From Bacteroidia bacterium (lineage in GTDB: Bacteria > Bacteroidota > Bacteroidia > Bacteroidales > Prolixibacteraceae), in assembly GCA_026391655.1 (NCBI GenBank), contig JAPLDR010000091.1, positions 14,744 to 73,369 on the forward strand: a stretch of DNA of 58,626 bases, in the 5' to 3' direction. Shown one piece after another: positions 40,053-58,626 of the stretch. The number at the start of each line of letters is the position of its first letter. Within the stretch, counting starts at the first letter, position 1. The notes under the pieces are model-generated. The model had not been told where the DNA came from and ran no database searches. It saw only the letters and a program-made list of their open reading frames with translations. Made by a program: the position numbers and the translations under genes.

Positions 40053-40064
40053 CGTTTTTTTGAT

Positions 40065-41449: not shown

Positions 41450-43789
41450 CTATTTCACTATCACCGCATTAACAGGACAAACCTGGCGGCAGGCATCGCA
41501 TTTGATACACAATTCGGTATTGATCACATGTTTTTCGTGAGGCAGAAACGGGATTGCATCAACGGGACACCGTTGTACACATTTCGTGCAACCGATACAA
41601 TCGTCTGTTATTGAATAGTTAACAATCGCCGTACATTTGCCTGTAGGACAAACACCATTGAGATGAGCTTCGTACTCTTCTCTAAAATATTTTAGCGTAC
41701 TTAAAACAGGATTTGGTGCCGACCGGCCTAATCCGCAAAGACTACCCTTCCTGGTCCATTCTGCGAGTTTCTCGAGTTTTTCCAGATCACCCGGCTTCCC
41801 TTTTCCCTGCGTCAGATTATCGAGCATATCAAGCATTCGTTTTGTTCCGACGCGACAAAAAGTACATTTACCGCAGGACTCTTCCTGGGTGAAAGAGAGG
41901 AAGAAACGGGCAATATCAACCATGCAATCGGTATCGTCAAGGACGATCAGTCCACCTGAACCCATCATGGCATCAAGGCTTGTAAGCGATTCATAATCAA
42001 TTGGTGTATTTTCAAGGCTTGCAGGAATACACCCGCCGGACGGACCTCCGATCTGCACAGCTTTAAATGTTCGTCCGTTGGCAATGCCACCACCAATCTC
42101 GTCGACCACCTGCCTGATGGTCATCCCCATGGGCACTTCAATCAATCCGCCGCGCGCCACTTTTCCCGCAAGGGCGAAAACTTTTGTTCCTTTGCTTTTC
42201 TCAGTTCCAATCCGTGTAAACCGATCGACATTATCACGCATAATGTAGGAAATCTGGGCAAAGGTCTCAGTATTATTGACGAGAGTAGGTTTTCCGAATA
42301 AACCTTTTTCAGCAGGAAACGGAGGCCGCAAATAGGGAAATCCACGATTCCCTTCAATCGACTGGATCAGTGCTGTTTCCTCGCCGCAGACAAATGCTCC
42401 GGCTCCTTCATAAATTTTCACATCGAAATTAAAGCCAGATCCCAGGATATTATTGCCAATCAAATTATTATCTCTGCAAATTTCGAGCGCTGCCCTGATT
42501 CTTTTTACTGCGAGCGGATACTCAGCACGAATATAAAAATACCCTTCGCGTGTATTTACAGCAAATGCGGCGATTAACATCCCTTCGATAATTCTGTAAG
42601 GATACGATTCGAGTAGCATGCGATCCATAAATGCACCCGGATCGCCCTCATCGCCATTACAAATGAGGTATTTAAGTTCACTATTCTGTTTGGCAACGAG
42701 TTCCCATTTAATCCCGGTAGGGAAACCGGCTCCTCCCCGACCCCTGATGCCACTCGCCTTGATCTTTGCGATTACCTGATCAGGGGTAAATTCTTTAAAA
42801 ACTTTTTTGAGTGCCTGGAAACCACCGCGTTGTTTATACTCTTCCAGATCAAGGGGATTGATTAAACCACGAAATTCGGTGGCAATCGGAAACTGTTTAC
42901 CGAGAAACGAAGAGACATGTTTTTCCCTGATGTCCAGCTCGTAACGCTCAATCCCTGCCCATTTCTGATCGGTCTGAATATCTTCGATAGCGCTAAAGAA
43001 TTTATTTTTCAACTTTGCAAAACGTCCGGAAGGCTGAAAATGAGATTCAATGATTTGTTTTACATCTTCCGGTTTCACTTTGGAATACAATATAGACTCC
43101 CCTTTGACAGGGACAATTTCGACGAGCGGCACCTGGTGGCACATTCCCACACAACCCACACTTTTCAGTTTAACCTGAAGACCCTTTTCAATGATTGTAT
43201 TTTCAACAGCGTCTTTAATGTCGCTGCTGCCGCTGGCCACACAGCAAGAACCCAATCCTATCCTTATTTCGCCCTGAATTTCAGTACCATCAGATTTACG
43301 AAACAGCTTTTTACCCTTATTGTCTTTCTGGCTTTCAAAATCTCTGATAAGCTCGGATGCTTTATCAGAAGTGACGTGACCGTAAGTGATGTGATCGATT
43401 TGAACAACCGGGGCTAATGTACAACAGCCCAGACAGCTCACCTTTTCGATTGTGTATTTGCCCGATTGAGATGTATGCTGCCCGTCCTTTAATTTAAATT
43501 CTCTGCGCATGGCATCGTAAACCTGAACGGCCCCTTTTACATGGCAAGCAGTTCCTACGCATACCCTGATCATGTGTTCGCCAACAGGAGCAAGTCTGAA
43601 TTGTGAATAAAAGCTGGCAACTCCGATAATTTCTGCAGGTTTGATTGCGGTTATATCACTTAATCTTCGCAATGCTTCTTCCGGCAAAAAGTTAAATTCG
43701 CGTTGAATCGCCTGAAGGATAGGAATTAAGGCCTCTTTGGTCGTTCCTCTCTCCCCAACGATACTGTCTATCTTGTTCAGGTCAATCAT
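41450..43789 (-). CDS. NuoE-NuoF-type fusion, NADH-oxidising iron-sulfur flavoprotein
   Basis: A protein of about 779 residues from the ATG at 43789; the longer frame to 43957 adds 56 residues that overlap the upstream gene and is rejected. Module order: NuoE-like thioredoxin-fold 2Fe-2S domain (CVGTACHVKGA, CLGCC), a second thioredoxin-like 2Fe-2S domain (GLGSCC, CVGMCHQVPL), NuoF-like NADH/FMN domain (SGIRGRGGAGFPTGIKW, GEETALIQSIEG), the CGKC-x2-C site, and two C-terminal 4Fe-4S motifs (CIGCTKC, CIKCDAC). The plan is that of HndC/HydB-type subunits of NADH-dependent hydrogenases and related bifurcating enzymes, here with NuoE fused. No hydrogenase or NuoG subunit is in the window. Confidence 0.86.
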   Translation of the reverse strand: MIDLNKIDSIVGERGTTKEALIPILQAIQREFNFLPEEALRRLSDITAIKPAEIIGVASFYSQFRLAPVGEHMIRVCVGTACHVKGAVQVYDAMRREFKLKDGQHTSQSGKYTIEKVSCLGCCTLAPVVQIDHITYGHVTSDKASELIRDFESQKDNKGKKLFRKSDGTEIQGEIRIGLGSCCVASGSSDIKDAVENTIIEKGLQVKLKSVGCVGMCHQVPLVEIVPVKGESILYSKVKPEDVKQIIESHFQPSGRFAKLKNKFFSAIEDIQTDQKWAGIERYELDIREKHVSSFLGKQFPIATEFRGLINPLDLEEYKQRGGFQALKKVFKEFTPDQVIAKIKASGIRGRGGAGFPTGIKWELVAKQNSELKYLICNGDEGDPGAFMDRMLLESYPYRIIEGMLIAAFAVNTREGYFYIRAEYPLAVKRIRAALEICRDNNLIGNNILGSGFNFDVKIYEGAGAFVCGEETALIQSIEGNRGFPYLRPPFPAEKGLFGKPTLVNNTETFAQISYIMRDNVDRFTRIGTEKSKGTKVFALAGKVARGGLIEVPMGMTIRQVVDEIGGGIANGRTFKAVQIGGPSGGCIPASLENTPIDYESLTSLDAMMGSGGLIVLDDTDCMVDIARFFLSFTQEESCGKCTFCRVGTKRMLDMLDNLTQGKGKPGDLEKLEKLAEWTRKGSLCGLGRSAPNPVLSTLKYFREEYEAHLNGVCPTGKCTAIVNYSITDDCIGCTKCVQRCPVDAIPFLPHEKHVINTELCIKCDACRQVCPVNAVIVK

Positions 43790-43823
43790 TATCCTGTTTT
43801 TGAACCATTTTAAATCTGTCAAT

Positions 43824-45656
43824 TTATTTCTTTCCAACGCAATAGAGGAAATTTGAAGTCCGAAGGTACATTCTTGCATTTGCGAATGCCGGTGTCGTAG
43901 TAACTTTTTCAGCAGCATTTCCTTCTCCGAGCAATTTTGCCTCTTTGGCCATATCATAGACCCTCATCTTTCCGGAAGTATCAAAAGTGTAGAGCTTATT
44001 ATCAGCGATAACAGGTGATGAATAATAACCGGGACCCTCCTCTTTTGACCAGTATTTTACACCCGATTTGGCATCATAACAGGCCAGTACTCCGTAACTT
44101 GTAGCGATGAACAACAATCCGTTTGCCGTAACCGGACTGGCTACTTCAGGTAAAAATTCATCACTTTCCCAAACTTTAGAATTTTTTGACGGATCGATCG
44201 CTACCAATTTGGCGTACTCGTTGGCAGCAAAAATCAGTCCGCCGCCAGATGCAGGTGAAGGACCAACTTCGCCGCTCAAACAGTCAACCGACCAAAGTTC
44301 TTTGCCTGATTCGGCATCATAGCCCGCCACCATAGGATCTGTAGAAAGTACCACCTGAAATTTACCGTTGATATCGGCCAAAATCGGACTTGCCCATGAA
44401 ATTTTTCCTTTACGTGCGGTTTCCCAGACCGTTTCTCCTGTAGAGGCATTGAGAGCAATTAATTTACGACTTTTATTTGTATCATACTGAATGTACACTT
44501 TGTCTTTCCACATCACCAATGATGAAGCGTGACCATAATGGTTATCAGGAAGACCCAGATTTCGTGCCCACACCCGGTTTCCATCCATATCGAAACAGAT
44601 GATATCACCATTTGCAAATATGGCATATACCTTGTTACCGTCAGTTGTGAGCGAAGAGGCAGCAAAACCGGTATCCTCAGTGACCTTCGGCATAGTGGCC
44701 GGACTGCCCGTGATATTGTCAACAGGCTGTTTCCAAAGCACTTTCCCAGAGTTACAATCAAAACAGTACACTTCACGCGATTGTTGATCAGCTCCGGAAA
44801 GAAACAGCTTGTTTCCCCAGATAACTGGTGAATTAAACCCTTTTTTAGGCACAGAAGTTTTCCAGATTACATTTTTACCTGAAGCAGCGTCCCATTCCAC
44901 AGGCGTTCCTTTCTGAAAAAAGACCCCGTTTCCGAAAGGTCCCCGAAAGGAAGATGCGTTCACCTTAATGGCATTACTTCCCGGAAAAGTGATTTTGGTT
45001 GCAGCAACCAGAGTAGCTTTAACCTTTGACGTATCGACTTTAGCGGTATTACCAGCAACAAGCTTTTTAGTTGAATCGGCTATTGCCGGTTGAGTAGCAT
45101 TGGGAATTTCACCAACTTTAATTACTTCTACTTTATCCTGATTATCAATAGATTTAGTTTCTGCCAAAGATTCGTTGACATCATATTTCTGAAGATGATC
45201 CACTGAAGCAAAAGATGCTACAAGTCCAAGCACAATCATTACAGATCCCGTAATCATCACCCATCGCTGGGTCATAATCCGGCTCGTCAAATCGTTTTCA
45301 TCCTTCACATCAGGTTCTTCAATCTTCGATTTTAAACCAATGAAAACGCGAAGCGAGAGTGCAAAAACGATGGCTCCGAAAAGTAATAAGTATCCACCCG
45401 TTTTCACCTGCCACTGACTGTTAAAATAGGCCTTGCGGGCCAGTAAATCAAAATTACGGATCTCCTGTTTTAACTCGTCACTATTTGGTTCCTGACTAAG
45501 CCGCTTGACCAGTGAAGTGAGTGCTTTACTTTCAAGCGGTTTATTTTTAGACATTTGCATAAAATTCAACAACAACAGCAAGGCTACTGTGATGCAGAAT
45601 ATTCCCGAAACAAGGGCAATATTTAACGAGAATTTCAGTTTATTTTCTGGTTCCAT
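43824..45656 (-). CDS. Membrane-anchored PQQ-like beta-propeller protein
   Basis: A 610-residue protein with three N-terminal membrane segments (about 10-33, 77-100 and 130-152), a low-complexity linker, and a propeller from about residue 235. Blade motifs include CNSGKVLWKQPV, STGETVWETARKG, AESGKELWSVDC and AKSGVKYWSKEEG. The propeller most likely faces the periplasm. It lies 34 bases upstream of the NuoEF-type gene and 22 bases after the NapH-like gene, so it is in the middle of a redox operon. PQQ-binding residues are not evident by eye. Confidence 0.85.
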   Translation of the reverse strand: MEPENKLKFSLNIALVSGIFCITVALLLLLNFMQMSKNKPLESKALTSLVKRLSQEPNSDELKQEIRNFDLLARKAYFNSQWQVKTGGYLLLFGAIVFALSLRVFIGLKSKIEEPDVKDENDLTSRIMTQRWVMITGSVMIVLGLVASFASVDHLQKYDVNESLAETKSIDNQDKVEVIKVGEIPNATQPAIADSTKKLVAGNTAKVDTSKVKATLVAATKITFPGSNAIKVNASSFRGPFGNGVFFQKGTPVEWDAASGKNVIWKTSVPKKGFNSPVIWGNKLFLSGADQQSREVYCFDCNSGKVLWKQPVDNITGSPATMPKVTEDTGFAASSLTTDGNKVYAIFANGDIICFDMDGNRVWARNLGLPDNHYGHASSLVMWKDKVYIQYDTNKSRKLIALNASTGETVWETARKGKISWASPILADINGKFQVVLSTDPMVAGYDAESGKELWSVDCLSGEVGPSPASGGGLIFAANEYAKLVAIDPSKNSKVWESDEFLPEVASPVTANGLLFIATSYGVLACYDAKSGVKYWSKEEGPGYYSSPVIADNKLYTFDTSGKMRVYDMAKEAKLLGEGNAAEKVTTTPAFANARMYLRTSNFLYCVGKK

Positions 45657-45678
45657 TCCAATAAGATAATTTACAACG

Positions 45679-46941
45679 TTATTTCTTTACGGGGCAAAAA
45701 TTCATGCAGCGTCCACAACTAAAACAGTTTCCTTTATGTGGCTGATAGTCGTTTTTCTTCCGGTAAACAACCTGACCAAGCAAAGTCATCCCGATTACTA
45801 AGCCAATAAATCCGCCTGCAATCCAACCTCCCGAGTAGAATTTCTGACGAATCACAGTCGCTTCTTTTACAAGTGTTTCCAATGATTTACCTGAACTTAA
45901 AAATGCCTGAACATCAAGATTTTTCTGATCATTTCGAACTTCAGGTTTTGATAATAAAAGTTCAGCAAGGTAAACCGTGGGATTGGCTTTAGAAATCCAC
46001 GTATGTGCCTTTGAACCAGCAAATCCGCCAATAAAAATCCATAACGGAATCAATAGTGCGTAAACCAAAAAACGGTTTACACCCCATTTTGTATTTTTTG
46101 ATTGCTTCTCATCTGTCGGATAATCGATGGCATCGAACGGACAAGAATCGCTGCACAATTTGCATTGAATGCAAGCAGCCGGGGTGATGGAAAGATGATA
46201 TTTGGAAAATCTTGACATCCAGTTAAGTAAGACGCCATAGGGACATAAAAACCTGCAATAGGGACGCGCCACAAACATTCCCATCAATATAAAGGCAATT
46301 CCCAGAACGACCATATGAAACTCAGCATCCATCCTGAAAATGCCGACAAAAGGATCGTAGCGGCAAATTATAAAATCGGTACCCGTCGCAGCAAACAAAA
46401 TGGCAAACGTCAGATAGAGATATGGTATGACTCCCAAAGTTTTGCGAAGCCATTCCGGTAATGACAATGGCTTAATTATCAATAAGTCCTGCATGGCTCC
46501 CAACGGGCATGCCCCGGCACAAAAGGTTCTGCCAAAGTAAAGTGTGAAAATTAGTGGTAACAGGAAAAAAAGTAAAGTTGTAATTGAAATAGCATAACCG
46601 GGATCAAAAAGCGTAAGTGACACATTCTGAATAGATCCAATGGAACAAATACATCCATTCCGGTAAAATCCGAAATAGAGCAAAGTGAAAACTGATAACC
46701 AAAGCAGTCCTTTTCGGGAACGTTTTCTGATCGCGAACCAGCTTGCCAGCGAAAGAACTATCAATAAAACAACAACATCGGTATATTCAAGTGCCAATGC
46801 ACGCGGTTCAGGTGTTACAGGAGTTGGTTGTGAATATCCGGTACCAAATTCAGGCTTTGGAAATCGTTGTTTCTGAGCCATTCCCGCCAAATTAAACATT
46901 AGAAAAGCAAAAACCAGTGTTATTTTAATCCAATTCTTCAT
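45679..46941 (-). CDS. NapH/NosR-like membrane polyferredoxin
   Basis: A membrane iron-sulfur protein starting at the ATG at 46941 (MKNWIKITLVFAFLMFNLAG signal-like segment); the frame to 46977 adds twelve residues of no visible value. It has several membrane helices, the CxxxCP pairs FCAGACPLGAM and CRFLCPYGVLL, and cytoplasmic-type 4Fe-4S motifs CIQCKLCSDSCPFDA and, at the very C-terminus, CFSCGRCMNFCPVKK. NapH/NosR/CcoG proteins move electrons across the membrane from quinol or ferredoxin. Here it adjoins a NapG-like protein (9 bases upstream of its frame), as in napGH pairs, but no nap or nos catalytic gene is present. Confidence 0.85.
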   Translation of the reverse strand: MKNWIKITLVFAFLMFNLAGMAQKQRFPKPEFGTGYSQPTPVTPEPRALALEYTDVVVLLIVLSLASWFAIRKRSRKGLLWLSVFTLLYFGFYRNGCICSIGSIQNVSLTLFDPGYAISITTLLFFLLPLIFTLYFGRTFCAGACPLGAMQDLLIIKPLSLPEWLRKTLGVIPYLYLTFAILFAATGTDFIICRYDPFVGIFRMDAEFHMVVLGIAFILMGMFVARPYCRFLCPYGVLLNWMSRFSKYHLSITPAACIQCKLCSDSCPFDAIDYPTDEKQSKNTKWGVNRFLVYALLIPLWIFIGGFAGSKAHTWISKANPTVYLAELLLSKPEVRNDQKNLDVQAFLSSGKSLETLVKEATVIRQKFYSGGWIAGGFIGLVIGMTLLGQVVYRKKNDYQPHKGNCFSCGRCMNFCPVKK

Positions 46942-46986
46942 CTGTAGATATCTGTCTAACATCAATTTACATTTCATATCTGAATT

Positions 46987-47562
46987 CTAAACTTTCGAAT
47001 CCTTTGTAAAACTCCCTTTCACGTTATAAGCTTTGCTCGCTTTTACACGAGAGATGGCCTGGGATGGACAAAGCCGGGCAATAGAACATTCATTACAATT
47101 CAGACATCGTTTGTGAATAATCTGCAAATGCAATGAACCGTTTCCGAACGAAGTACATCCTTTGACACATTTTGCACAGCCAATACAAAGGTCTTCATTT
47201 ATAACATACTCAAAATAAGGCTCTTCTATAAATTTACGAGCAATAGCAGCCGTAGGACAAAGCTGATCTTCGGCAGCCGTTGAACGTTTATTGGCATCGG
47301 GTTTCAGATATCCGCCACAGAGGTCGCAATAACCACAAAGGTTGAAAGCATGAATACATTTTACTGCTGAGGGGGTCATGACACATGAAGTGGCACAACG
47401 TCCGCACTGTGTACATTTAAACGGATCAATCTGCCAGACGTATTTTTCAGCAGTAAGATGTTTTGCTGCAATTCCGCCCACTGCCCCTAAAGTAAGAAGA
47501 ATAGAGAGACGAGTACCGCTCCGAATGAAATCCCGCCGGCTTTTTTTATTGTTATTTTCCAT
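46987..47562 (-). CDS. NapG-like exported ferredoxin with twin-arginine signal
   Basis: Starts at the ATG at 47562, preceded by AGGAGAGA as a good ribosome binding site; the longer frame to 47613 is rejected. A twin-arginine signal (SRRDFIRSG, Arg9-Arg10) indicates folded export. Four 4Fe-4S motifs are seen: CTQCGRCATSC, CGYCDLCGG with neighbours, CIGCAKCVKGC and CLNCNECSIARLCP. Its plan matches NapG/MauM-type periplasmic ferredoxins that accept electrons from NapH-like proteins. It overlaps the small Cys protein by 11 bases and precedes the NapH-like gene. Confidence 0.85.
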   Translation of the reverse strand: MENNNKKSRRDFIRSGTRLSILLTLGAVGGIAAKHLTAEKYVWQIDPFKCTQCGRCATSCVMTPSAVKCIHAFNLCGYCDLCGGYLKPDANKRSTAAEDQLCPTAAIARKFIEEPYFEYVINEDLCIGCAKCVKGCTSFGNGSLHLQIIHKRCLNCNECSIARLCPSQAISRVKASKAYNVKGSFTKDSKV

Positions 47563-47752
47563 TTTTTCTCTCCTTATTTGCCTGTGGAAGTTCACATTGA
47601 GAGTATTTACCACAGTTTTTACATTGCGGTGCGACCGAACAATTTTCAGGAGTTACAATCTTTTGATTATAAGCAAGAAACGCGCTTAAAAGCCCTATTC
47701 CGGATAAGATTGCCAGGCGCCCTCCATGTTTAAAAAAATCTTTTCTGTGCAT
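47552..47752 (-). CDS. Small membrane or exported protein with four cysteines
   Basis: A 66-residue protein with one hydrophobic segment (about 12-27, LAILSGIGLLSAFLAYN) and a charged start (MHRKDFFKHGGR) similar to a twin-arginine-like leader but with Arg-Lys instead of Arg-Arg. The outer part has Cys38, 44, 47 and 53 spaced C-x5-C-x2-C-x5-C, a likely metal or Fe-S site. It overlaps the NapG-like gene by 11 bases and lies 5 bases after the NHL-type gene, so it is a real member of the operon. No family recognised. Confidence 0.7.
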   Translation of the reverse strand: MHRKDFFKHGGRLAILSGIGLLSAFLAYNQKIVTPENCSVAPQCKNCGKYSQCELPQANKERKNGK

Positions 47753-47757
47753 TGTCT

Positions 47758-48717
47758 TTATTTTTTTACAAATAACCTGAGCATCTTTTTATCAGCATCA
47801 AGGGCATATATATTACCCTGATTATCAATAGCCAGATCGGGAGCATGACCATTTTCTGTAAATTTTGAAGGTGCGGCGACCACACCCGAAAATTCACCGG
47901 AAGGTTTATAGGTTTTTATCCTGATCAGCCCCTTTTCGCTTGTTATGAAACTACCGTCGGGTAAAAAGGCAAAATGGGCAGGATTGCAACATCCGCTAAA
48001 CCCCTCAATTTTGATTGAGGAGGCTTGCCACCAGGTTCGAAGTTTACCATCAACTGTATAGTTTTCAAGCGAATGCTTCCCTGGATTGACCACCCATAAT
48101 TCACCATCAGTATTGAATGCCAAATCGAAATAAGGACTTGGAATAATAAAACCATGGATCTGATCATTACCCGATTTCCCTTCAATCTCACCCTGGGCTT
48201 TTCCATCAAAAGAGAACTTCCTGATTATCCGCTTCCCGGCATCGGCTACAAATACAATTCCTGATTTTTCGGCTATGGAGGTGATGACAGTGCTATCGGA
48301 AAACGAATTCCAATCCGCGATTTTTACTCCGTCGCGACTCAGAATAGTTATCGATTTCCGGAATCCCACAAATATTTTTTCAGCAGATGCATAAACGCAG
48401 GTTGGCTTCTGATCGAAACTCACTTCGTTCATCAATTTTCCCGTTGGTTCGATAATCTGCATTTTCTGATCCCCCACAACAAAAAGTTCGTCACCCCGAA
48501 AACTGATGCCGGTAGGTTCTGAAAAGCTGATAGCCAGATCGCGGCTTTCTTTAAATAGTATCAACGCTGTGTCAATCCGCGAAAACGGATCGACATTAAA
48601 CGCATATGGATTTGCGGGCTGCTTATCAGGTTTGGAAGCATTAAAGTCGATTGCAACAACTGCGACGATAACCACAGCCAGAATGATCAGAAAAAAGACG
48701 ATACCCTTGTTCTTCAT
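47758..48717 (-). CDS. NHL-type beta-propeller, membrane-anchored or exported
   Basis: A 319-residue protein with an N-terminal membrane anchor (about 6-24, FFLIILAVVIVAVVAID) and NHL-like repeats (LFVVGDQKMQIIEP, IIRKFSFDGKAQGEI, NHY-like LAIDNQGNIYALDADKKML near the end). Such propellers usually bind other proteins or ligands; no catalytic residues are recognised. It sits between the PQQ-like propeller gene (10 bases upstream) and the small Cys protein, within the redox operon. Confidence 0.78.
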   Translation of the reverse strand: MKNKGIVFFLIILAVVIVAVVAIDFNASKPDKQPANPYAFNVDPFSRIDTALILFKESRDLAISFSEPTGISFRGDELFVVGDQKMQIIEPTGKLMNEVSFDQKPTCVYASAEKIFVGFRKSITILSRDGVKIADWNSFSDSTVITSIAEKSGIVFVADAGKRIIRKFSFDGKAQGEIEGKSGNDQIHGFIIPSPYFDLAFNTDGELWVVNPGKHSLENYTVDGKLRTWWQASSIKIEGFSGCCNPAHFAFLPDGSFITSEKGLIRIKTYKPSGEFSGVVAAPSKFTENGHAPDLAIDNQGNIYALDADKKMLRLFVKK

Positions 48718-48727
48718 AATTCAGAAT

Positions 48728-50252: not shown

Positions 50253-51497
50253 TTACACACCCTGAATATTATAAATCAGCAAGATATTGCCATGTCGCAG
50301 GTATAACCTGCCATCATAAATTGCAGGATGTGCCCAGTAAGGTCCATCTCCTGCACCAACTTTAAAAGTACTGATTATTTTAAAGTCAGCAGCATCGGGT
50401 TGAACCAAAGCCACATTTCCTCCTTTTTCTTCGTAACAATAGAGCAAGCCATCAGCTGAAATGATAGAACCTTTTGTAAACCAATCTTTTACCCAATTAG
50501 TCTTTCCTGTTTTCCAATTCATCGAAACCCATTGTCCTTTGGTATTACTTTGCCAGTTGGTTCCGTAAAGATTTCCATCAATCAGAACTACTCCTCCATG
50601 ATGCGTGTCCATCGTGTCGTTTTTCCATTTCAGGCTGACTGAACGTCCGTCTTCCGAAAGCGAGAACATTATTGCCGAATGATCGTAACCGCTTGTATGA
50701 AAGATCTCTCCATCCTTATAAACTGGAGTGTTCGCATTGCATCCCTTTCCCATATCACCTGGTTGGAACGGCCTAAGATCAAAACTCCAGAGAATCTCTC
50801 CGTTGATGGAATTAATTCCAATGATATCATTTGCTGTCTGCGCAAGTATAATCTTTAATCCACCTCGTTCAATCAGAAGAGACGAGGCGTAAGCCCTTGC
50901 ACCTCCAAGACTTTTAGTCTTCCACAGAAGTTTTCCGGTTATCTTGTCAAAAGCCACAACAGATGTCTCTTCTCCGCCGGTAACGTATATAGCAGCTAGA
51001 TCAGTCAGAAGGACAGATTCGGCAATCCCCCAGATCAAATAATCTCCTTTAAATTGATTTTGAGCATCTTGTGACCATAGCATGTTCCCATTTTTGGCAT
51101 CAAGACAACAAACTGTTCCCATTCCGCTGACAAGATAAACTTTGTCGTTTTGGACTGTCGGAGTAGAGCGTGTATCAGGAAAAGACTTTGCCCAGGAATG
51201 TCCATACACCTTATCCCAAAGTAACTTACCCTCTAAATCGTAGGCTGAAATTACATCCATCGTATCCTTTTTGATACCTGATATATAAATAACACTCTTA
51301 TAAACAACTGGTTCTGAATATCCCTTTCCAATGCCGGCAATTTGAAGTTCAAGTTTCGGACCTGCTACCGGCCACTTTTTTAAAAGTCCTTTGTCAGGAA
51401 AAATCCCGTCCCGCGAAGGTCCTCGCCATTGTGCAATCTCCTGTCCAAAAACGGGAGAAATCAGGAACAACAGAATACAGCAAAATAATATTCTCAT
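50253..51497 (-). CDS. Secreted PQQ-like beta-propeller protein
   Basis: About 414 residues from the ATG at 51497 (signal peptide MRILFCCILLFLISPVFGQ); a TTG at 51503 would add two residues. Blades have DLEGKLLWDKVYG, AKNGNMLWSQDA, KITGKLLWKTKS and INGEILWSFDL. It is a close paralogue of the following protein: both have IAGIGKGYSEPVV/KIGKGYSSPVV, an Asp-Thr-Arg-Ser-Thr-Pro turn and the WAHP ... LYLRHG ... YNI ending. Overlap with the possible longer frame of the next propeller is only apparent. Confidence 0.85.
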   Translation of the reverse strand: MRILFCCILLFLISPVFGQEIAQWRGPSRDGIFPDKGLLKKWPVAGPKLELQIAGIGKGYSEPVVYKSVIYISGIKKDTMDVISAYDLEGKLLWDKVYGHSWAKSFPDTRSTPTVQNDKVYLVSGMGTVCCLDAKNGNMLWSQDAQNQFKGDYLIWGIAESVLLTDLAAIYVTGGEETSVVAFDKITGKLLWKTKSLGGARAYASSLLIERGGLKIILAQTANDIIGINSINGEILWSFDLRPFQPGDMGKGCNANTPVYKDGEIFHTSGYDHSAIMFSLSEDGRSVSLKWKNDTMDTHHGGVVLIDGNLYGTNWQSNTKGQWVSMNWKTGKTNWVKDWFTKGSIISADGLLYCYEEKGGNVALVQPDAADFKIISTFKVGAGDGPYWAHPAIYDGRLYLRHGNILLIYNIQGV

Positions 51498-51507
51498 TAA
51501 CAATTAA

Positions 51508-52713
51508 TTAAGCCTTAATATTGTAAACCATTAAAACCTCGCCATGACGTAAATAGAGCTTACCATTACTGATAAAAGGATGAGCCCAATGTGGCCCGGT
51601 TCCGTCAGTCACCTTAAATGTGCTGATCACCTCCCATTTTTCAGGATTCGGTTTAATTAAACCTACCGTACCAGTTTTCTCTTCATAGACATAGAAAAGA
51701 TCATCTGCTCCGATAAGTGCACCTTTGTTGATCCAGTCTGTTACATATTCTACTTCGCCGGTATCCCAATTCATGCAAACCCATTTTCCTTTACCGTTGC
51801 TTTTCCAATTTGAACCATACATGTAATCGCCTGAAACCAGAACTCCATGATGATGATTATCAAGTGTATGATCAGTCCATTTTTCTGAAACAGAAGTTCC
51901 CAGGGAATCCATTTTCAGCATCACAGCCGGGTAATCGTAACCCATTGAAAGAAAAATCTCATCATTTTTGAAAACCGGCGTATTGGTCCAGATCAAACCC
52001 GGCTGATCGCTCCAAAGTTTATATTGATAATACTTGTAACTCCATGCTACACTGCCGTTTCCAGGATTAAGCGCAATCAAATGAGTTGCAGTTACTGCCA
52101 GTATAAATCTGAAATTTTTGTATTCAAAGATAGTTGGTGAAGCATAAGCCCGCTGTCCGCCAACACTTTCACTTTTCCAAACTAATTTTCCGGTTATCTT
52201 ATTAAAAGCAACAACTGAAGTCTCTTTACCACCTGGGGTACAAATTACCTTATCGTCAACAATCAATGGAGATTCAGAAACTCCCCATAGGTGCCACTCT
52301 GCTTTAAAATCCTTATCAACATCAACAGCCCATCTCTCTTTTCCGCTGTTGGCATCAATACAAACCAACCGGCCTAAACCTCCAACTACATAAACACGAT
52401 CACCTTCAACTGTGGGAGTTGAACGCGTTTCGGGAAATGATTTCGACCATGATCGTCCGTAAGGAACCTGCCATTTTATTTTCCCCTGAAAATCAATAGC
52501 TGTCAGATAATCAAGCGTATCAATCATTCCGGTTACGTAAATGGTTTGATTGGCAACTACGGGAGAGGAATAACCTTTTCCAATTTTCCCGACTTTGAGA
52601 ATCATCTGCGGACCTTCAGCCGGCCATGATTTCATTAATCCGGTTTCTTTAACCTGACTGAAAGCAGAATAAGTGAATGACAAAACCAACGACATCAAAA
52701 TAACCTTCTTCAT
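51508..52713 (-). CDS. Secreted PQQ-like beta-propeller protein
   Basis: A 401-residue secreted propeller (signal peptide to about AFSQ, residue 20). Blade motifs include DFQGKIKWQVPYG, ANSGKERWAVDVD, KITGKLVWKSES and PGNGSVAWSYKY. It ends in GPHWAHPFISNGKLYLRHGE, very like its neighbour at 50253-51497 and like a degraded remnant upstream (52813-52908). It is the first intact gene of the propeller series and follows a non-coding gap of 373 bases, so an operon promoter probably lies there. Confidence 0.85.
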   Translation of the reverse strand: MKKVILMSLVLSFTYSAFSQVKETGLMKSWPAEGPQMILKVGKIGKGYSSPVVANQTIYVTGMIDTLDYLTAIDFQGKIKWQVPYGRSWSKSFPETRSTPTVEGDRVYVVGGLGRLVCIDANSGKERWAVDVDKDFKAEWHLWGVSESPLIVDDKVICTPGGKETSVVAFNKITGKLVWKSESVGGQRAYASPTIFEYKNFRFILAVTATHLIALNPGNGSVAWSYKYYQYKLWSDQPGLIWTNTPVFKNDEIFLSMGYDYPAVMLKMDSLGTSVSEKWTDHTLDNHHHGVLVSGDYMYGSNWKSNGKGKWVCMNWDTGEVEYVTDWINKGALIGADDLFYVYEEKTGTVGLIKPNPEKWEVISTFKVTDGTGPHWAHPFISNGKLYLRHGEVLMVYNIKA

Positions 52714-53086
52714 AAATTACTGTGTATTAATATTTAAAAACGAGAGAAAATGGCTTTATCACCTTTTCTCCCGTTTCGGAAAATCTATAATGAATTGTAT
52801 CTTTCCAAACTACTATTTTATTTTGTAAGCTATCAAGGATTTACCATGCCGAACAAAAAGCCGGCCATTGTTGATGACCAGGTGAGCCCATGCCGGGAAC
52901 TTCCCAATTCATCATAATGCCAAACAATTTTGTTTTAAACTTTTGCCTAAAAATAGAACCAATCCACTGAACCTGCAAACTGATCATCGTATTTAGTACA
53001 GGTCTAAATAATAGGCTCTGGCTGCCGGCGACTGGCATCTAGCGTCTAGCCGTCAACTGCATTTTTTACTTCCATGATTTTCAATA
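52714..53086. other. Gap with a degraded propeller-gene end and GC-rich patch
   Basis: The region holds the 3' end of a decayed PQQ-like gene (52813-52908) and a more GC-rich patch near 53014-53060 with repeated CTAGCGTCTAGC-like text. A chance 65-codon frame covers 52841-53038 and is not a gene. No clear promoter was seen. Confidence 0.5.
52813..52908 (-). pseudogene. C-terminal remnant of a further PQQ-like propeller gene
   Basis: On the minus strand the frame reads AWAHLVINNGRLFVRHG then SLIAYKIK and a stop, matching the last residues of the two neighbouring propellers (WAHPFISNGKLYLRHG, YNIK). A stop codon (52909-52911) cuts the frame upstream, and no other part of the gene is recognisable. 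This shows that the series once contained at least one more copy. Confidence 0.65.
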
Positions 53087-54100
53087 TTAGAATAAAATGT
53101 TCAGTATATATCCGACAGTAATTATTCCTGCAGCAATGATTCCGACAAAGATGAAGATAAACGGCAGCTTTAAAACCTTTTTTAGAATAATCAATTCGGG
53201 TAACGAAATTCCGATTACCGACATCATAAAAGCGAGTGCAGTTCCAAGCGGAACTCCCTTTTCGATTAAAGCATAGGCAATTGGGACAGCTCCGGGCGAA
53301 CAGGAATACAGTGGAATTCCAACTAAAACAGCAAGTGGCACCGAATACCAGGTCGATTTGTTGATTAGCGCGGCCAATGAATCATTTGGCACATATCCGT
53401 GAACAAAAGCTCCGACACCGATTCCCAAAATCATATAGGGCCAGATTTTAACAATGATCTCCTTTACTGCAATTCTGCCGGCCTGAATCCTGTCATTAAA
53501 TGTAAGTCGATTATTTTCCGATGTAGTCGTCCCAAACTTTAAATTCCGAACCCAATCCTGAAGCCACTTTTCCAGATTAAGTTTTCCAATTATCCAGCCT
53601 GCAGCTATTGCGATCAATAAACCCATCAGAATATAAATCACGCCAACTTCCCATCCAAACAGGCTAAATAGCATAATTACTGCCACTTCGTTTATCATAG
53701 GAGCTGCGATCAAGAATGAAAATGTGATGCCTATCGGGATTCCTGTTTCAACAAAACCTAAAAACAGCGGAATTGCTGAGCAGGAACAAAACGGGGTGAC
53801 AATTCCAAGTAAAGCCGCCAGGATATTGCCCATAAACAGCGATTTACCCTCCAGTGCTTTTCGCGTCTTTTCGGGCGAGAACCAGGAACGAACAATACCA
53901 GCCAGAAAAATCACAAGAATCAGAAGCAGAAATATTTTCTGCAATGTGCTGATGAAGAACCAAACTGTGTTCGACAGATTTGACTCATAAGGCATAGATA
54001 ACCAATTATATACAATAAAGTTACTGGATGCTTCCTTGTAGATATACAGGAAAATCCACAATAAAAGCAATGGAATATATATAATTGATTTATAGCGCAT
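53087..54100 (-). CDS. UPF0718/YraQ-type permease
   Basis: A 337-residue membrane permease with about eight helices and the family's paired motif: FCSCSAIPLF (Cys105, Cys107) in the first half and SCSPGAVPIAYALIE in the second. Relatives such as ArsP export organoarsenicals, but most are uncharacterised and may move metals or thiol compounds. It lies 10 bases after the CobW-type GTPase gene, a pairing that suggests metal or sulfur chemistry. Substrate is not predictable. Confidence 0.85.
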   Translation of the reverse strand: MRYKSIIYIPLLLLWIFLYIYKEASSNFIVYNWLSMPYESNLSNTVWFFISTLQKIFLLLILVIFLAGIVRSWFSPEKTRKALEGKSLFMGNILAALLGIVTPFCSCSAIPLFLGFVETGIPIGITFSFLIAAPMINEVAVIMLFSLFGWEVGVIYILMGLLIAIAAGWIIGKLNLEKWLQDWVRNLKFGTTTSENNRLTFNDRIQAGRIAVKEIIVKIWPYMILGIGVGAFVHGYVPNDSLAALINKSTWYSVPLAVLVGIPLYSCSPGAVPIAYALIEKGVPLGTALAFMMSVIGISLPELIILKKVLKLPFIFIFVGIIAAGIITVGYILNILF

Positions 54101-54110
54101 TGAAATTCAA

Positions 54111-55298
54111 TTAAAAGATACAACAGCAGCTTTCATCTGCTTTATTATCACATAAACATGCTTCGATCTGACTTTTATTCAGATTTTTAACACAGCGGCA
54201 TTCGTCACAGCATGGTAAATTTCGGGTTATCCGATGTGTAGGATCAGGAAAACCGGGTTGAAATGCCTGTTCCTGACTTTCGCTGACTAAAACTCCGGAA
54301 CGGGAAATTGCGTTAACTCCCTTTCTTACAATCGCACGAGCCACTTCGGGTGAAGTTTCAATTCTCGAATTGACCATTATTTTTACATCGCCGACCATTA
54401 AAGAGGGAAGATTAATTTTCCAATTGTCATCCAGTATCGACGTAAAACTGATTTTATGACTGAACTCTTCCCCTTTCAATAGAAATTTTAAATGACCGAT
54501 CGGAATTTGCTTTTGCTTGATCTCTTCTACCATGCTTTCAATAAACAATAGGGCAACCTTAAAGGCTGATTGATCCTCAGTGTGAATATTGACCTCTTCA
54601 TCTAGCCAGACAAGGTCGGCTTCACCTTTTCCATAAATCTGATAATCAATGTCGAGTGAATCTCTTCGCCGAATTGGCAAGGTCTCAAGCGTTGTAAGCC
54701 AGTTTTGAATATTCCGAGGATTCAATGAATTCTGGAAGATCAGTATCTTTCGAGCAAACCTGGTATTTGTTAAATCCTGTAGTATTTCCAAATCTTCAGC
54801 TGACAGCAAATCAATTTTACTAATAACCAATAAATCAGCCTCTTCTATCTGTTTGGTGAAAATATAACAAATCTCATCGTTGAATGGCATTTTTTTACTT
54901 TGAAGATAATCAATCAATAACCGGCTGTCGACAAAGACAGAGAAAGTAAGTTCGTCAAACAGTTCTTTTTTAAGCAACTGCAATGGTTTTAAAACAGTTG
55001 CCACCAAATCGGTACACGATCCTACACTTTCGGCAAAAATGCAATCCGGTTTGATGATACGTTCCAGCAATTCAACCTGATCGCTAAGACTATTAAAATT
55101 ACAGCAAAAACAACCATTGGTCACTTCGGCTGTCGGAATGTCATAAGAACCGATAAAGCTTGTGTCAACCAAATATTTACCCTGATCATTCGTAACCACA
55201 GCAACCTTTTTTCCATGCAGTATCAGCAATTTTGATGCATTTGTTATTGCAGTAGTCTTGCCACTTCCCAAAAAGCCTCCAATAATATGTAATTTCAT
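54111..55298 (-). CDS. CobW/G3E-type GTPase with Cys-rich tail
   Basis: A P-loop GTPase of the G3E family (CobW, ZNG1/YeiR, HypB relatives), which deliver metals to target enzymes. The P-loop is GSGKTT at 11-16, and the metal-binding GCFCC motif is at 62-66. After the GTPase part the C-terminus contains a dense set of cysteines (CCDECRCVKN, CLCDN, ESCCCIF), unusual for the family and probably a metal or Fe-S reservoir. Its stop is 10 bases from the permease start. A role in metallation of a protein encoded nearby is inferred. Confidence 0.85.
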   Translation of the reverse strand: MKLHIIGGFLGSGKTTAITNASKLLILHGKKVAVVTNDQGKYLVDTSFIGSYDIPTAEVTNGCFCCNFNSLSDQVELLERIIKPDCIFAESVGSCTDLVATVLKPLQLLKKELFDELTFSVFVDSRLLIDYLQSKKMPFNDEICYIFTKQIEEADLLVISKIDLLSAEDLEILQDLTNTRFARKILIFQNSLNPRNIQNWLTTLETLPIRRRDSLDIDYQIYGKGEADLVWLDEEVNIHTEDQSAFKVALLFIESMVEEIKQKQIPIGHLKFLLKGEEFSHKISFTSILDDNWKINLPSLMVGDVKIMVNSRIETSPEVARAIVRKGVNAISRSGVLVSESQEQAFQPGFPDPTHRITRNLPCCDECRCVKNLNKSQIEACLCDNKADESCCCIF

Positions 55299-55392
55299 TA
55301 TTTACAGTTCATTATATATTTAAACTTTCTCTAAAATCACCTTCAGTCTTCTGCTTCTTCCGGACCATTTCCAACAGTCAAATTTAGAAATC

Positions 55393-57186
55393 TCATTCCA
55401 AATATCTTCTGAGCGCCTCTATATAGTAGATTAACGGATATAATTTCTCGTCATACCACAACATTGCAAAATAAAGACCGATTGGATTCGATCGCATACC
55501 ATTTTTATCGTATTCATTTTCAATCCATTCAAATCCTTTCAGGATGGCGTCCTGATCTTTTCCGATCAAAGCTGAGATTGCCAGCGAACTCTCCTCAATT
55601 GTACCCGGAATGTCCAATTCGCCACCCCAACTGCCATCAGCATTTTGCTGTTTCAATAAATATTCCTGAGCGTCGGACAACATCCGTCGGATATTCCGTT
55701 TCATATGATCTTCCAAACTATTACACAATAAACTATCTTTTAAATAGATAGCAACTTTTGCTGTTCCGTAAACGTAATTCTTGTTCTCCGGAGTAAACTG
55801 ATTACCAAACCATAGTGGAAACCAGCTACCATTGTCGTTCTGAACCTTCCAAAGAAACCCAAATGCTCTGGCAATGCATTGTTTTACTGTATTTTGAAAT
55901 TCGATAGTCATTTTATCGCCAAGAATATCAAGCGATTTAGCCAATGCCAGCAACGCATGTCCGGTCAGATCGGCACAACTGCTGTCGAAAGGAAGTTTGC
56001 CCCACCCTTTACAGAAAGTCGGGTATCCTCCGTCTTTGTTTTGCAGCGTTGCTAGCCACTGGCAACCATTGATAATCGCTTCTTTATCCTCAATATCAGA
56101 ATGATATAATTCGACAAGTGCCAAAATTGCCCCCGAAGTGTCGTCAACATCAGGTACTGAACCTGAGAAGTTTGTCCATCCCCAGCCACCTGGCTGTGCA
56201 AGATTAAATGGATGAACATCTTTATATTGAATTGTCTTTAAATGAGTTACAAGCGCATTAATTTCGGACGCTGAAAATTCTTTTGACATTTGTGACCCGA
56301 GTGCCTTCACACTTAAGGTAGTGACCCATGTTGATAAATCGGTATCAATAGGCCAGCTACCATCCGGTCGTTGCTGAATACGCAAAAAAGAGAGCCCTTT
56401 TTCAACCACAGGATTATCTCCAAATCCGGACGAAATAAGACACATTTCGACGAAAGCTGTCAATGGAATTGCCTCAAGAAAACCACCACTTTCGGGAACA
56501 ATTTTTTCAAGTTTGCGCAGGGCAGGTTGAATGGATCTGTTTCTGATCCAACGCATTATTCGATTGTGACGATTTCTTTTCTTAAAGATAAAAATACCAA
56601 CAGCAATCAGAGCCGGAATGGCATAACTTACCACGCGCAGATTAAACAGACTATACCATGATGCCGGGAACAACGTAAATTCAAAAGGCAACTGAGGTAT
56701 TTTCGAATATACTTTTTCGTCGAGCACACCACAAATTATTAGCATCGAGAGGATCGGAACAGAAAAGGTAAAGTCGTTGCCGTAAAATGACAATACAGAA
56801 GTTGTTACATTACCTTTTGTCAAATCGATTTTCTGCTGTAACAGATATTTTTCGATACTCAAAAGGGCTTTTTTTGATGGTTCGCTACCTTTTCCACAAT
56901 AACTGATAGCAGCAAAGCAAAGCAATGAAGTGCTGACATTGCTTTTACTATCGGGTGTATCACCAAATCCGCCATCAACGTTGATATTATTTAAAAGCCA
57001 ATCTAATCCATTTAAAATTAAATAATTATCAGTTTTATCTTTATTTATTTTCAGCGCAACAATTGCCACAGCGGTCGCCAAGGCACTTGATGCAAGCCTG
57101 CCACTCCAGAAACCTTCAGCATTTCGCTCAGATTTAAGCAACCGGACCAACCTGGTAAATTGATTTTCAAGATTTTTCTGCTCCAT
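55393..57186 (-). CDS. Squalene-hopene cyclase family terpene cyclase
   Basis: A 597-residue class II triterpene-type cyclase. The catalytic acid motif is DVDDT at 346-350, preceded by PGGWGWTNFSG. QW-type repeats include FLRIQQRPDGSWPI, WLATLQNKDGGYPT, FLWKVQNDNGSWFP and YLLKQQNADGSWGG; a NYVYGTAKVAIYL segment near the C-terminal half also matches the family. Known enzymes have about 630 residues. The substrate could be squalene or another polyprene; no squalene synthase is in the window. It lies between a small toroid protein and a CobW-type GTPase gene, in one direction. Confidence 0.86.
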   Translation of the reverse strand: MEQKNLENQFTRLVRLLKSERNAEGFWSGRLASSALATAVAIVALKINKDKTDNYLILNGLDWLLNNINVDGGFGDTPDSKSNVSTSLLCFAAISYCGKGSEPSKKALLSIEKYLLQQKIDLTKGNVTTSVLSFYGNDFTFSVPILSMLIICGVLDEKVYSKIPQLPFEFTLFPASWYSLFNLRVVSYAIPALIAVGIFIFKKRNRHNRIMRWIRNRSIQPALRKLEKIVPESGGFLEAIPLTAFVEMCLISSGFGDNPVVEKGLSFLRIQQRPDGSWPIDTDLSTWVTTLSVKALGSQMSKEFSASEINALVTHLKTIQYKDVHPFNLAQPGGWGWTNFSGSVPDVDDTSGAILALVELYHSDIEDKEAIINGCQWLATLQNKDGGYPTFCKGWGKLPFDSSCADLTGHALLALAKSLDILGDKMTIEFQNTVKQCIARAFGFLWKVQNDNGSWFPLWFGNQFTPENKNYVYGTAKVAIYLKDSLLCNSLEDHMKRNIRRMLSDAQEYLLKQQNADGSWGGELDIPGTIEESSLAISALIGKDQDAILKGFEWIENEYDKNGMRSNPIGLYFAMLWYDEKLYPLIYYIEALRRYLE

Positions 57187-57219
57187 AATTTCGCCTTAAT
57201 ATCAGATCAAAGCAATAAT

Positions 57220-58092
57220 TTAATTCATTGATCCTAATGCCAATAAACCATAAAATGTATACTCCACATCGGTAATAGAATCAGATGGTGTAGCCCGAAA
57301 ACCGCCATTATCATACAAATCATCCACGAAAGAAAGACAACCGGGTTTGATTAACCTAATATCGGCATCCAGAAAATGAAGGGCATACAAGGCGACTCCC
57401 GTAGAAAGCAAATCTTCTGAAGGAGCTTTGTGAAGCGCTGCAAATCCGCCACTTTCGCGACAGAACGATTTTAGCATTTCCACAGCCTCGGGCGACCGAT
57501 TTCCAGCCATTCCAAGCAGTACGGCTGTCGCTGCAACTACGGGACAAGGATTTCCGCTCATCGGAATGAACCGTTTGTATTGATTAACAATTCGTTGTAT
57601 GTTCAGATAATCTTCAAGATAATATAGTGCCAAAATTCCAAGAAAACCGGCATATTCAGGGTGTTTAGAATCTGGTTTAGTGAGATCAGCTACAATCTGT
57701 TTTCGTAACTTTTCAGACTTAGCATCCAGACCAAACAGTTTTGCGTACAAAATAGCGCCGCAATAAAGATAAACTCCTGACAGATTGGTTGATGTAACCG
57801 TAGCCAGATACTTTTTCAACGGTTCTGTTACTTCAGTGACTGAAAAAGATTCAGCAATATAATAACCAAAAAGCGTGTAATACAAATCGCATTTCCCTCC
57901 CCTGTCAGCAAATCCGCCCTGAGCCGTTTGTTTGCTGCCAATAAACGATCTTATTTCGGCAATCATCTCAGGATCAAGCATCAAAATCGATTTGGTCAAA
58001 ACCGGTTCGATCAGTTTGGGTCGTACCTTTTTTAACTGAGGTTGTACTGCCAGCTTAAATATATTCCTTGAAAATCTTTCCCAAAATCTCAT
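57220..58092 (-). CDS. Small prenyltransferase/terpene-cyclase-like toroid protein
   Basis: A 290-residue protein with repeated alpha-toroid units related to squalene cyclases and prenyltransferase beta subunits: KQTAQGGFADRGGKCDLYYT, LYCGAILYAKLFG, GGFAALHKAPSEDLLSTGVA and GGFRATPSDSITDVEYTFYG. The acidic DxDDT motif is absent, so it is unlikely to be a cyclase itself; a partner or regulator of the larger enzyme is possible. It overlaps the polyprenyl synthetase by 38 bases and precedes the cyclase gene by 33 bases. Confidence 0.78.
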   Translation of the reverse strand: MRFWERFSRNIFKLAVQPQLKKVRPKLIEPVLTKSILMLDPEMIAEIRSFIGSKQTAQGGFADRGGKCDLYYTLFGYYIAESFSVTEVTEPLKKYLATVTSTNLSGVYLYCGAILYAKLFGLDAKSEKLRKQIVADLTKPDSKHPEYAGFLGILALYYLEDYLNIQRIVNQYKRFIPMSGNPCPVVAATAVLLGMAGNRSPEAVEMLKSFCRESGGFAALHKAPSEDLLSTGVALYALHFLDADIRLIKPGCLSFVDDLYDNGGFRATPSDSITDVEYTFYGLLALGSMN

Positions 58093-58626
58093 GTAATGCC
58101 AGTTTAAGACCTAAATTAGAGATGCTTTCAAGACAACTTTTTGCTTCGTGAATAGTACTGATCAGTAGTTCTTTGGTGGCATTCTGAATTTGATACCGGT
58201 CAATTAATTCGTAAATTACCTCATAATCATCATGCTTATAAGCATTTAACAGAATTTCATTCTCCGATTTCGGAAGTTGCTCTTTTAGAACAGAAAGTAA
58301 TATGGAAAATTTTCGGATAGCAATATCTCCTTTATTACCCTTATAATCAGATAAATCATCTTTTATTTGATATCCAATGCCAATAGAATGACTAAATCGG
58401 TTCAATACTTCGATCGTTTCACCGGAAGCACCACCAACCGTAGCGCCAAGCAACAGTGATACCTTAAATGCCGCTGCCGTTTTATTTTCGAATAATTTCA
58501 ACATCTCTTTCAAGGAAAGGATCTCTTTTGAATGGATGGAAATCAATTCGTCACCCTGCCCGATTGTCAGACTTCGATGTCCGTGGGAAACTATCTTGAT
58601 TCCTTCACGAATCATCGCAGAAGGAA
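58055..58626 (-). CDS. Polyprenyl (isoprenyl) diphosphate synthase, partial at right edge
   Basis: The C-terminal part of a trans-isoprenyl diphosphate synthase; the frame stays open to the window edge (PSAMIREG before the first ATG at 58615). The second aspartate-rich motif is KDDLSDYKGNKGD. The SKEILSLKEMLKLFENKTAAAFKVSLLLGA region is typical. It makes a linear isoprenoid diphosphate that the neighbouring cyclase could use. The first aspartate motif is outside the window. It overlaps the toroid-protein gene by 38 bases. Confidence 0.85.
   Translation of the reverse strand, partial: PSAMIREGIKIVSHGHRSLTIGQGDELISIHSKEILSLKEMLKLFENKTAAAFKVSLLLGATVGGASGETIEVLNRFSHSIGIGYQIKDDLSDYKGNKGDIAIRKFSILLSVLKEQLPKSENEILLNAYKHDDYEVIYELIDRYQIQNATKELLISTIHEAKSCLESISNLGLKLALHEILGKIFKEYI

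Follow-up and report, generated by a model that had tools for sequence, protein, structure and literature searches.

A conserved gene block in Bacteroidota encodes propellers, ferredoxins and a pair resembling a bifurcating-enzyme core, with an optional polyprenoid module

The window analyzed here, a stretch of 58,626 nucleotides from positions 14744-73369 of contig JAPLDR010000091.1 of a Prolixibacteraceae bacterium, carries on its minus strand a block of genes for polyprenoid enzymes, propeller proteins, ferredoxins and iron-sulfur (Fe-S) flavoproteins. A first-pass annotation, made from the letters alone, had listed 14 of these genes as tightly spaced on one strand and it read them well: all 14 are open, lie on the minus strand in the order given, and 12 of the 13 junctions between them are shorter than 100 bp, the first gene being cut by the window end. 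Both ends of the block were misplaced, however. It does not stop at 41450 but continues to 29158, with a subunit we call G517, a propeller, a glycosyltransferase and an ATP-binding cassette (ABC) transporter at 29158-37147, beyond an insertion; nor does it start at the polyprenyl synthase, as the polyprenoid genes extend 3.1 kb further upstream of the window (locus L091). There the polyprenyl synthase proves to be fused to DUF116, with a radical S-adenosylmethionine (SAM)/SPASM gene and a 259-amino-acid (aa) Fe-S gene upstream, so that the polyprenoid part as listed was incomplete. We divide the block into two modules. Module A consists of the Fe-S protein, the radical SAM protein, the DUF116::polyprenyl synthase, a toroid protein (TOR) and an SHC-like cyclase; module B of the PQA and PQB propellers, PQC, an NHL protein, a small four-cysteine protein, NapG-like and NapH-like ferredoxins, PQD, EF, G517, PQE, the GT4 glycosyltransferase and the ABC genes. 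Their features in the window, with start codons judged likely from family alignments, are as follows.

58055..58624, minus strand: DUF116::polyprenyl synthase, C-terminal part (PF00348); the upstream part matches PF01976, and the 5' part lies at L091:798-2668, partly masked
57220..58092, minus strand: TOR, 290-aa alpha/alpha-toroid protein (PF00432 at 25.5 bits, just under the cut-off of 26.5)
55393..57186, minus strand: SHC-like class II terpene cyclase with a DXDD motif (PF13243, PF13249)
51508..52713, minus strand: propeller PQA, predicted to be exported (PF13360; leader-like N-terminus read by eye)
50253..51503, minus strand: propeller PQB, a PQA paralogue of 49% identity (PF13360)
48728..50155, minus strand: PQC, membrane-anchored propeller (longest open reading frame (ORF) to 50260; conserved face; Foldseek)
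47758..48717, minus strand: NHL propeller, membrane-anchored, with a Cys-Cys pair in GCCNP (alignments, fold search)
47552..47752, minus strand: small protein with an N-terminal hydrophobic segment and C-x5-C-x2-C-x5-C (alignment)
46987..47562, minus strand: NapG-like polyferredoxin with a twin-arginine-like leader (ORF to 47613; alignment)
45679..46977, minus strand: NapH-like polytopic polyferredoxin (PF12801; alignment; hydropathy)
43824..45656, minus strand: PQD, N-terminal transmembrane segments and propeller (PF13360; hydropathy)
41450..43786, minus strand: EF, NuoE-like domain fused to a StnB/HydB-like subunit (longest ORF to 43957; domain matches, solved relatives)
35597..37147, minus strand: G517, StnC-like Fe-S/FAD subunit without the NADPH-domain stretch (solved relatives, alignment)
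34491..35600, minus strand: propeller PQE (49/81 loci)
33104..34399, minus strand: GT4-type glycosyltransferase, distal module B (41/81 loci)
32400..33074, minus strand: ABC ATPase, distal module B (31/81 loci)
29158..32403, minus strand: FtsX-domain ABC permease, distal module B (its own permease family follows the ATPase in 25 relatives)

Polyprenyl synthase and TOR overlap by 38 bp, followed by gaps of 33 bp from TOR to the cyclase, 94 bp to a CobW gene, 10 bp to an ArsP gene (both described below) and 373 bp, the widest, to PQA. Spacing then runs 4 bp (PQA-PQB), 97 bp (PQB-PQC), 10 bp (PQC-NHL) and 5 bp (NHL-small protein), with an 11-bp overlap between the small protein and NapG and gaps of 9 bp (NapG-NapH), 22 bp (NapH-PQD) and 37 bp (PQD-EF).

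The suggestion that the redox and propeller genes form a conserved block in relatives was borne out. A scan with the NapH-like protein returned 218 relatives, the best 80 of which were fetched as loci; by label one belongs to Chlorobiota and the others to Bacteroidota, among them Draconibacterium, Maribellus, Mariniphaga and numerous metagenome bins. Module B is present in Draconibacterium orientale and Mariniphaga anaerophila. In these 80 loci module B keeps its order and strand as far as the loci reach, with extra ORFs in some, and many stop short of the distal genes. Counting the window as well, and leaving aside proteins with more than 20 X, family members lie on the same strand for NapG in 76/76 cases, NHL in 75/75, PQD in 72/72, PQC in 70/70, EF in 68/68, G517 in 59/59 and PQE in 49/49, where absences include genes cut at locus ends or lost in ORF picking. 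G517 follows EF in relatives either directly or after small ORFs. Beyond the fetched loci we surveyed 295 genomes sampled from the order, draft assemblies among them so that absence is weak evidence, with cut-offs of E 1e-100 for PQC, 1e-60 for NapH and 1e-30 for the cyclase. PQC was found in 49 of the 295 and NapH in 47. Of the 45 genomes with both, 34 have them on one contig, separated by 2.8-3.9 kb. A phylum sample of 395 genomes, few of them from the window's order, yielded PQC at E 1e-40 in the window's own genome and in 0/394 others.

At the cytosolic end of module B, EF combines a NuoE-like [2Fe-2S] domain, a thioredoxin-like [2Fe-2S] domain, an FMN/NADH core and a C-terminal 2[4Fe-4S] domain. 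Its nine best solved relatives score 561-702 bits (9bov_B, 9n5u_B, 8oh5_B, 7t2r_B, 7q4v_B, 8a6t_B, 7p5h_B, 7q4w_B and 9mqx_B) and carry labels such as NfnB (9n5u_B), StnABC (8oh5), NiFe hydrogenase subunit B (7t2r_B) and electron bifurcating HydB (8a6t_B); we take all nine to belong to bifurcating enzymes, as is confirmed for 8oh5 and indicated by name for 8a6t. The next-best matches are a formate dehydrogenase beta subunit at 384 bits and complex I chain 1/NuoF at 370 bits or less. G517 points the same way, with 9bov_A, 8oh5_C and 9n5u_A as its best three solved relatives at 284-294 bits, followed by 4ylf_B at 126 bits; the three are the partner chains of entries that top EF's list. The first-pass annotation had labelled EF a NuoEF fusion, which holds for its NuoE-like part, but the protein as a whole is nearer StnB/HydB and its StnC-like partner had been overlooked. 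Given that partner, we read the pair as resembling a bifurcating-enzyme type core, closer to the StnABC type than to complex I; a complex I fragment was rejected, both proteins matching StnABC-type entries better.

The entry 8OH5 is the StnABC transhydrogenase of Sporomusa ovata, a reversible enzyme in which, as described, bifurcation takes place in the StnAB module, while StnC carries NADPH electrons through FAD and a cluster chain, with a GltD-like FAD/NADPH domain at 102-565 and Lys170 as a cluster ligand (PMC10482914). Compared with StnABC, with 9N5U (NfnA/NfnB) and with 9BOV, both subunits align over most of their length. By its sequence EF has a StnAB-like domain set, with the StnA and StnB parts fused in one chain. 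G517 keeps the N-terminal [2Fe-2S] domain and Fe-S chain, Fer4_20, the FAD Rossmann parts of one such domain and an FAD-type GxGxxG motif, and Lys stands at the Lys170 position in 55/55 family members. Its alignment, in contrast, comes in two pieces and omits 288-422 of 9bov_A and 288-409 of 8oh5_C, the latter a stretch in which, by our reading, the NADPH site would have its second Rossmann fold. It also ends at about StnC residue 672, so that the FdhF-like domain (683-1172) is absent; the Cys114 position is Ile in 55/55 members, and at the Arg239 position 50 of the 55 have V, I, K, E or L, the other five not being shown. Taken together, the skipped stretch, the lost Cys114, the lack of a conserved Arg239 and the missing FdhF-like domain suggest that the NADPH arm has been cut away across a family whose members measure 512-558 aa in 54 of 59 cases, the other five being shorter. 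The operon partners differ from those of StnABC as well, being here membrane and periplasmic ferredoxins and propellers.

Between the pair and the propellers stand three cysteine-rich proteins. In these and the other alignments, which exclude members outside 0.85-1.25 of the median length, the NapH-like protein, with several hydrophobic segments, has 15 Cys conserved at the level of at least 95% (81 aligned), the NapG-like protein, with its twin-arginine-like leader, 17 (76 aligned) and the small protein four (46 aligned). The small protein often has R-K or R-R before its hydrophobic segment, which makes its export route less certain. NapGH delivers electrons to the periplasmic nitrate reductase, ferredoxins of this type are known for outward delivery, and NosR and MauMN are relatives. 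Common to NapGH and our pair is an exported polyferredoxin adjoining a polytopic polyferredoxin with two CxxxCP motifs, yet the NapH-like protein scores only 42.3 of 213 bits on TIGR02163 and 44 of 1000 on the NosR model, far under both cut-offs, and has further conserved Cys at positions 109, 111 and 205, as well as a Cys motif at its C-terminus. The genes scanned include no Nap, Nos or Mau enzyme, and the model score together with the absence of a nap reductase family among them rules out classical NapGH membership. Rnf and Nqr connect an Fe-S chain in the membrane to the pool of NADH and ferredoxin, and the likeness here would be one of proposed task; no Rnf or Nqr subunit was recognised among the genes scanned, and EF, at 65.5 of 245.95 bits on the RnfC model, is too far under the cut-off for Rnf membership.

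As for the propellers, the model of PQC (mean pLDDT 88) has a long N-terminal helix and a propeller for which Foldseek ranks BamB and tetrathionate hydrolase highest and quinoproteins lower, at E about 2e-12. We set tetrathionate hydrolase aside as a guide to function, the likeness being one of fold at 13-14% identity. Of the 91 invariant residues in the propeller, 44 lie in the 121 positions (of 417) that form the loops leading to the inner strands, among them 18 of the 30 that are R, D, E, K, H, N, Q or C; we picked the loop intervals from the model's strand list, and the enrichment is descriptive. This gathering of invariant residues suggests a single functional face on PQC. Conserved Cys in the NHL protein are limited to two neighboring residues, present in at least 95% of 75 sequences and invariant in 40, and among the 50 fold matches listed for it are generic NHL and lyase propellers. 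On TIGR03075, the model of methanol/ethanol quinoproteins, PQA, PQB, PQD and PQE reach 38-70 of 480 bits and PQC is unlisted; membership among the PQQ dehydrogenases was rejected on these scores. Across the window's genome there are 20 matches to the PQA propeller, some of them pieces of one gene, and a PQC paralogue (E 5e-61) lies off the cluster at G000:C138:39592-40833 (L093, L125), none of its neighbors within 19 kb belonging to module A or B.

Module A recurs in the same order in nine loci (the window with L091, L112-L116 and L118-L120), in one of which, L118, TOR was missing from the ORF list and was found by tblastn (L109). TOR adjoins the cyclase in relatives too. Catalytic motifs of the radical SAM protein, the polyprenyl synthase and the cyclase are conserved in alignments of 8 to 12 sequences; the D-x-D-D of the cyclase is invariant in 12 of 12, proteins shorter than 520 aa being excluded. 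With 95.6 of 431.1 bits on TIGR01507 the cyclase falls far under the hopene cyclase cut-off, on which a hopanoid operon was rejected, and no squalene synthase was seen in the block, the genome not having been searched for one. The DUF116::polyprenyl synthase fusion, with its Asp-rich motifs, occurs in other genomes also. A like fusion is reported for Psta_0175 of Pirellula staleyi, for which the available excerpt mentions no five-gene operon, cyclase or propellers (PMC5898192).

How closely does module A belong to module B? The cyclase is present in 13 of the 295 genomes of the order sample, where PQC accompanies it in 13/13 (12/12 without the window's own genome) and NapH in 11/13; no cyclase without PQC was found in this sample, and in the phylum sample the cyclase, like PQC, was absent from all 394 other genomes. 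The hypergeometric probability of the 13 co-occurrences is 1.7e-11, uncorrected for relatedness; counted by family it is nine of nine, about 3e-6, with some 119 families, a number inferred from genome handles. In six of the 13 genomes (the window genome, G417, G529, G556, G596 and G648) module A runs directly into the propellers on the same strand, as it does in the fetched loci L011, L012, L016, L018, L021, L040 and L046, with CobW and/or ArsP between them in some; in the divergent genomes of L118 and L119 the cyclase and first propeller ORFs overlap by 4 bp. In the other seven module A is unlinked or at a contig end. Three genomes (G558, G658 and G504) have the modules on different contigs, each of at least 100 kb, and in one of these, G504, whose PQC is on another contig, the genes immediately upstream of module A (L114:3-4343) include a sensor/regulator-like pair and two PQC-like propellers, which match the PQC profile at E about 1e-60. 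In G658 the cyclase is about 50% identical to that of the window and PQC 67%, a difference in distance that makes it probable that genomes with propellers gained module A more than once. The first-pass annotation had taken the propeller/ferredoxin and polyprenoid genes as one block and named their separate occurrence as a point against it. The association is real, but it is confined to some lineages: the propeller/ferredoxin genes often occur without polyprenoid genes (the cyclase is lacking in 36 of the 49 PQC genomes), whereas the cyclase was not found without PQC in this sample. The link of block and polyprenoid genes is thus real, and optional.

Four further features lie within or between the modules.

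54111..55298, minus strand: CobW-type GTPase with a Cys-rich C-terminus, optional passenger (PF02492)
53087..54100, minus strand: ArsP_1-type permease, optional passenger (PF03773, 254.6 bits)
52816..52905, minus strand: decayed remnant of a first propeller gene, PQx (53% identity to PQA 371-400, E 6.8e-4, 31-aa frame)
37148..41449, no strand assigned: insertion between EF and G517, outside the system (lipoprotein-like ORF, zinc-type alcohol dehydrogenase, 161-aa ORF, DUF1016/YhcG nuclease)

The remnant lies in the 373-bp gap from ArsP to PQA, and close relatives have a propeller match at this place. A CobW match is absent between the cyclase and the propellers in L011, L012, L016, L021, L118 and L119, as is an ArsP match in L118 and L119, and in L120 ArsP lies upstream of the Fe-S gene; both were rejected as core parts, being absent between the modules in several loci. 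A SaoE/CobW-related selenoprotein system was also rejected, the CobW protein scoring 136.5 of 325 bits on NF040736 and 65.2 of 180 on NF041053. Several other neighbors were noted, most of them named by eye. The EF/G517 site holds other small ORFs in relatives, one family being REP-type-transposase-like. Between the first two propellers L025, L027, L029, L031, L032, L037, L040 and L087 have histidine-kinase-like and LytTR-like ORFs, a pair that could possibly serve as a substrate sensor. Just upstream of module A, L120:803-2654 (G648) has an ArsP-like permease (59%) and an ArsC-like ORF. The divergent stretch L091:4714-7463, also upstream of module A, has ATPase-like and RloB-like ORFs and next to them a membrane protein of 239 aa whose Cys motifs resemble those of ferredoxins, and L091:10869-18789 encodes tandem long WD-repeat-like proteins with near-alike repeats and Cys-rich tails.

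What might such a block do? We propose, at a probability of roughly 45%, that it encodes an outward electron conduit that would run from NADH/ferredoxin through EF/G517, NapH and NapG with the four-cysteine protein to the propellers, with the polyprenoid as an optional partner. EF would bind G517 in the cytosol, and the arm of G517, docking on the NapH-like membrane polyferredoxin, would exchange electrons with it instead of with NADPH as in Stn. From there electrons may pass to the exported NapG-like protein and the small four-cysteine protein and on to the anchored PQC, NHL and PQD. PQC and NHL would be the working ends, as their conserved faces suggest, with PQA, PQB and PQE as partners, and NADH, possibly together with reduced ferredoxin if bifurcation is retained, would drive the reduction of a periplasmic substrate. 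Module A would make a cyclised polyprenoid that the radical SAM protein modifies, with the Fe-S and DUF116 proteins donating electrons, and this lipid may be a cofactor, an anchor or a substrate of the propeller complex, a role that would restrict module A to genomes with PQC. The first-pass annotation had already sketched a membrane system connecting cytosolic NADH with propellers that are exported, and perhaps involving a lipid cofactor; as an outline this is fair, and the predicted span from cytosol through membrane to periplasm agrees with it, but the NADH part is of bifurcating type and the lipid is optional.

Several observations weigh against this proposal. Operon order, rather than any feature of sequence, is what ties G517 to NapH. 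In G504 the match to G517 spans only residues 1-189 of 516. G558 has PQB-PQA-PQC-NHL and module A, but NapH was absent at E 1e-60 and its propellers have no ferredoxin genes next to them, a case that links the polyprenoid with the propellers and not with the ferredoxins. Only six of the 13 cyclase genomes have the two modules adjacent, and in L117 (G410) the cyclase stands alone, its operon absent. Distances in the two modules correlate only moderately, at a Mantel r of 0.65, and 106 of 5000 permutations were as high, in seven of the 13 genomes. RnfC was above its cut-off in seven of 10 genomes tested and not in three, the window's own among them, a mixed presence that speaks for no simple division of labor with Rnf. 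Finally, as the first-pass annotation had remarked, no known terminal reductase came up: the genes scanned include no cytochrome or molybdenum enzyme family that could be the terminal enzyme.

Electrons could also flow inward. A periplasmic propeller enzyme, PQC and/or NHL, would then oxidise a substrate, taking the place that NADPH has in Stn, and EF would reduce NAD+ and ferredoxin with electrons received through NapG, NapH and G517. The outward delivery known of NapGH-type ferredoxins tells against this, and PqqE was above cut-off in 0 of 10 genomes (with 0 of 14 in control genomes too, so that there is no positive control), the classical propeller cofactor thus probably not being made. On the other side, PQC has an enzyme-like conserved face and a distant fold likeness to quinoprotein dehydrogenases, and in Stn it is the StnC arm that supplies the NAD+- and ferredoxin-reducing module with electrons from NADPH, although that enzyme is described as reversible (PMC10482914). 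We hold outward flow to be more likely, and give the inward direction perhaps a minority chance. A PQQ-dependent respiratory dehydrogenase system, which PQQ_2 family membership might bring to mind, is very improbable given the quinoprotein scores and the same PqqE result, read with its lack of a positive control.

The propellers might instead act as BamB-like scaffolds in envelope maturation, where the redox chain would serve a machine for outer-membrane or glycolipid assembly by keeping its thiols or Fe-S proteins in the reduced state, and the GT4, ABC/FtsX and polyprenoid genes would share the envelope task. BamB is the best fold match of PQC, and GT4 and the ABC ATPase are found in 41 and 31 of the 81 loci, many of the others ending earlier. 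But the sporadic presence of PQC (49/295 in the order, 0/394 others in the phylum sample) is unlike that of a housekeeping function, and a StnB/HydB-type core would be a large investment for thiol reduction; we consider this explanation improbable. That module A is an unrelated neighbor, placed beside module B by chance or transfer, seems to us less probable again. One might expect as much from the 36 of 49 PQC genomes without the cyclase, from the seven of 13 cyclase genomes in which the modules are not adjacent (some at contig ends), and from the separate contigs of G558, G658 and G504 and the unequal identities in G658, but PQC accompanies the cyclase in 13/13 genomes of nine families, and same-strand propeller junctions recur in the window's kin, L040, L046, L090/L120, L118, L119, L121 and L122, two of them with the 4-bp overlap.

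Returning to the outward conduit, all of its parts have known relatives, but no system that we know or found has the same combination or a StnC arm truncated in this way, and no description of the locus came up in the open-licence literature searched. It is tempting to go further and speculate that a flavin-based bifurcating core has exchanged soluble NADPH for a transmembrane Fe-S relay, coupling bifurcation or confurcation to propeller chemistry without cytochromes or quinones, with a redox polyprenoid in some lineages, a picture that we think unlikely to hold in full. Because named strains of Draconibacterium, Maribellus and Mariniphaga carry the system, cultivated hosts make these ideas testable. 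If the wiring is true, it would tie the NADH/ferredoxin pool to the periplasm without complex I, Rnf, quinones or cytochromes, would give a function to orphan propellers, and would point to a cyclic terpenoid not yet described, made by a pathway that was seen only where the propellers occur.

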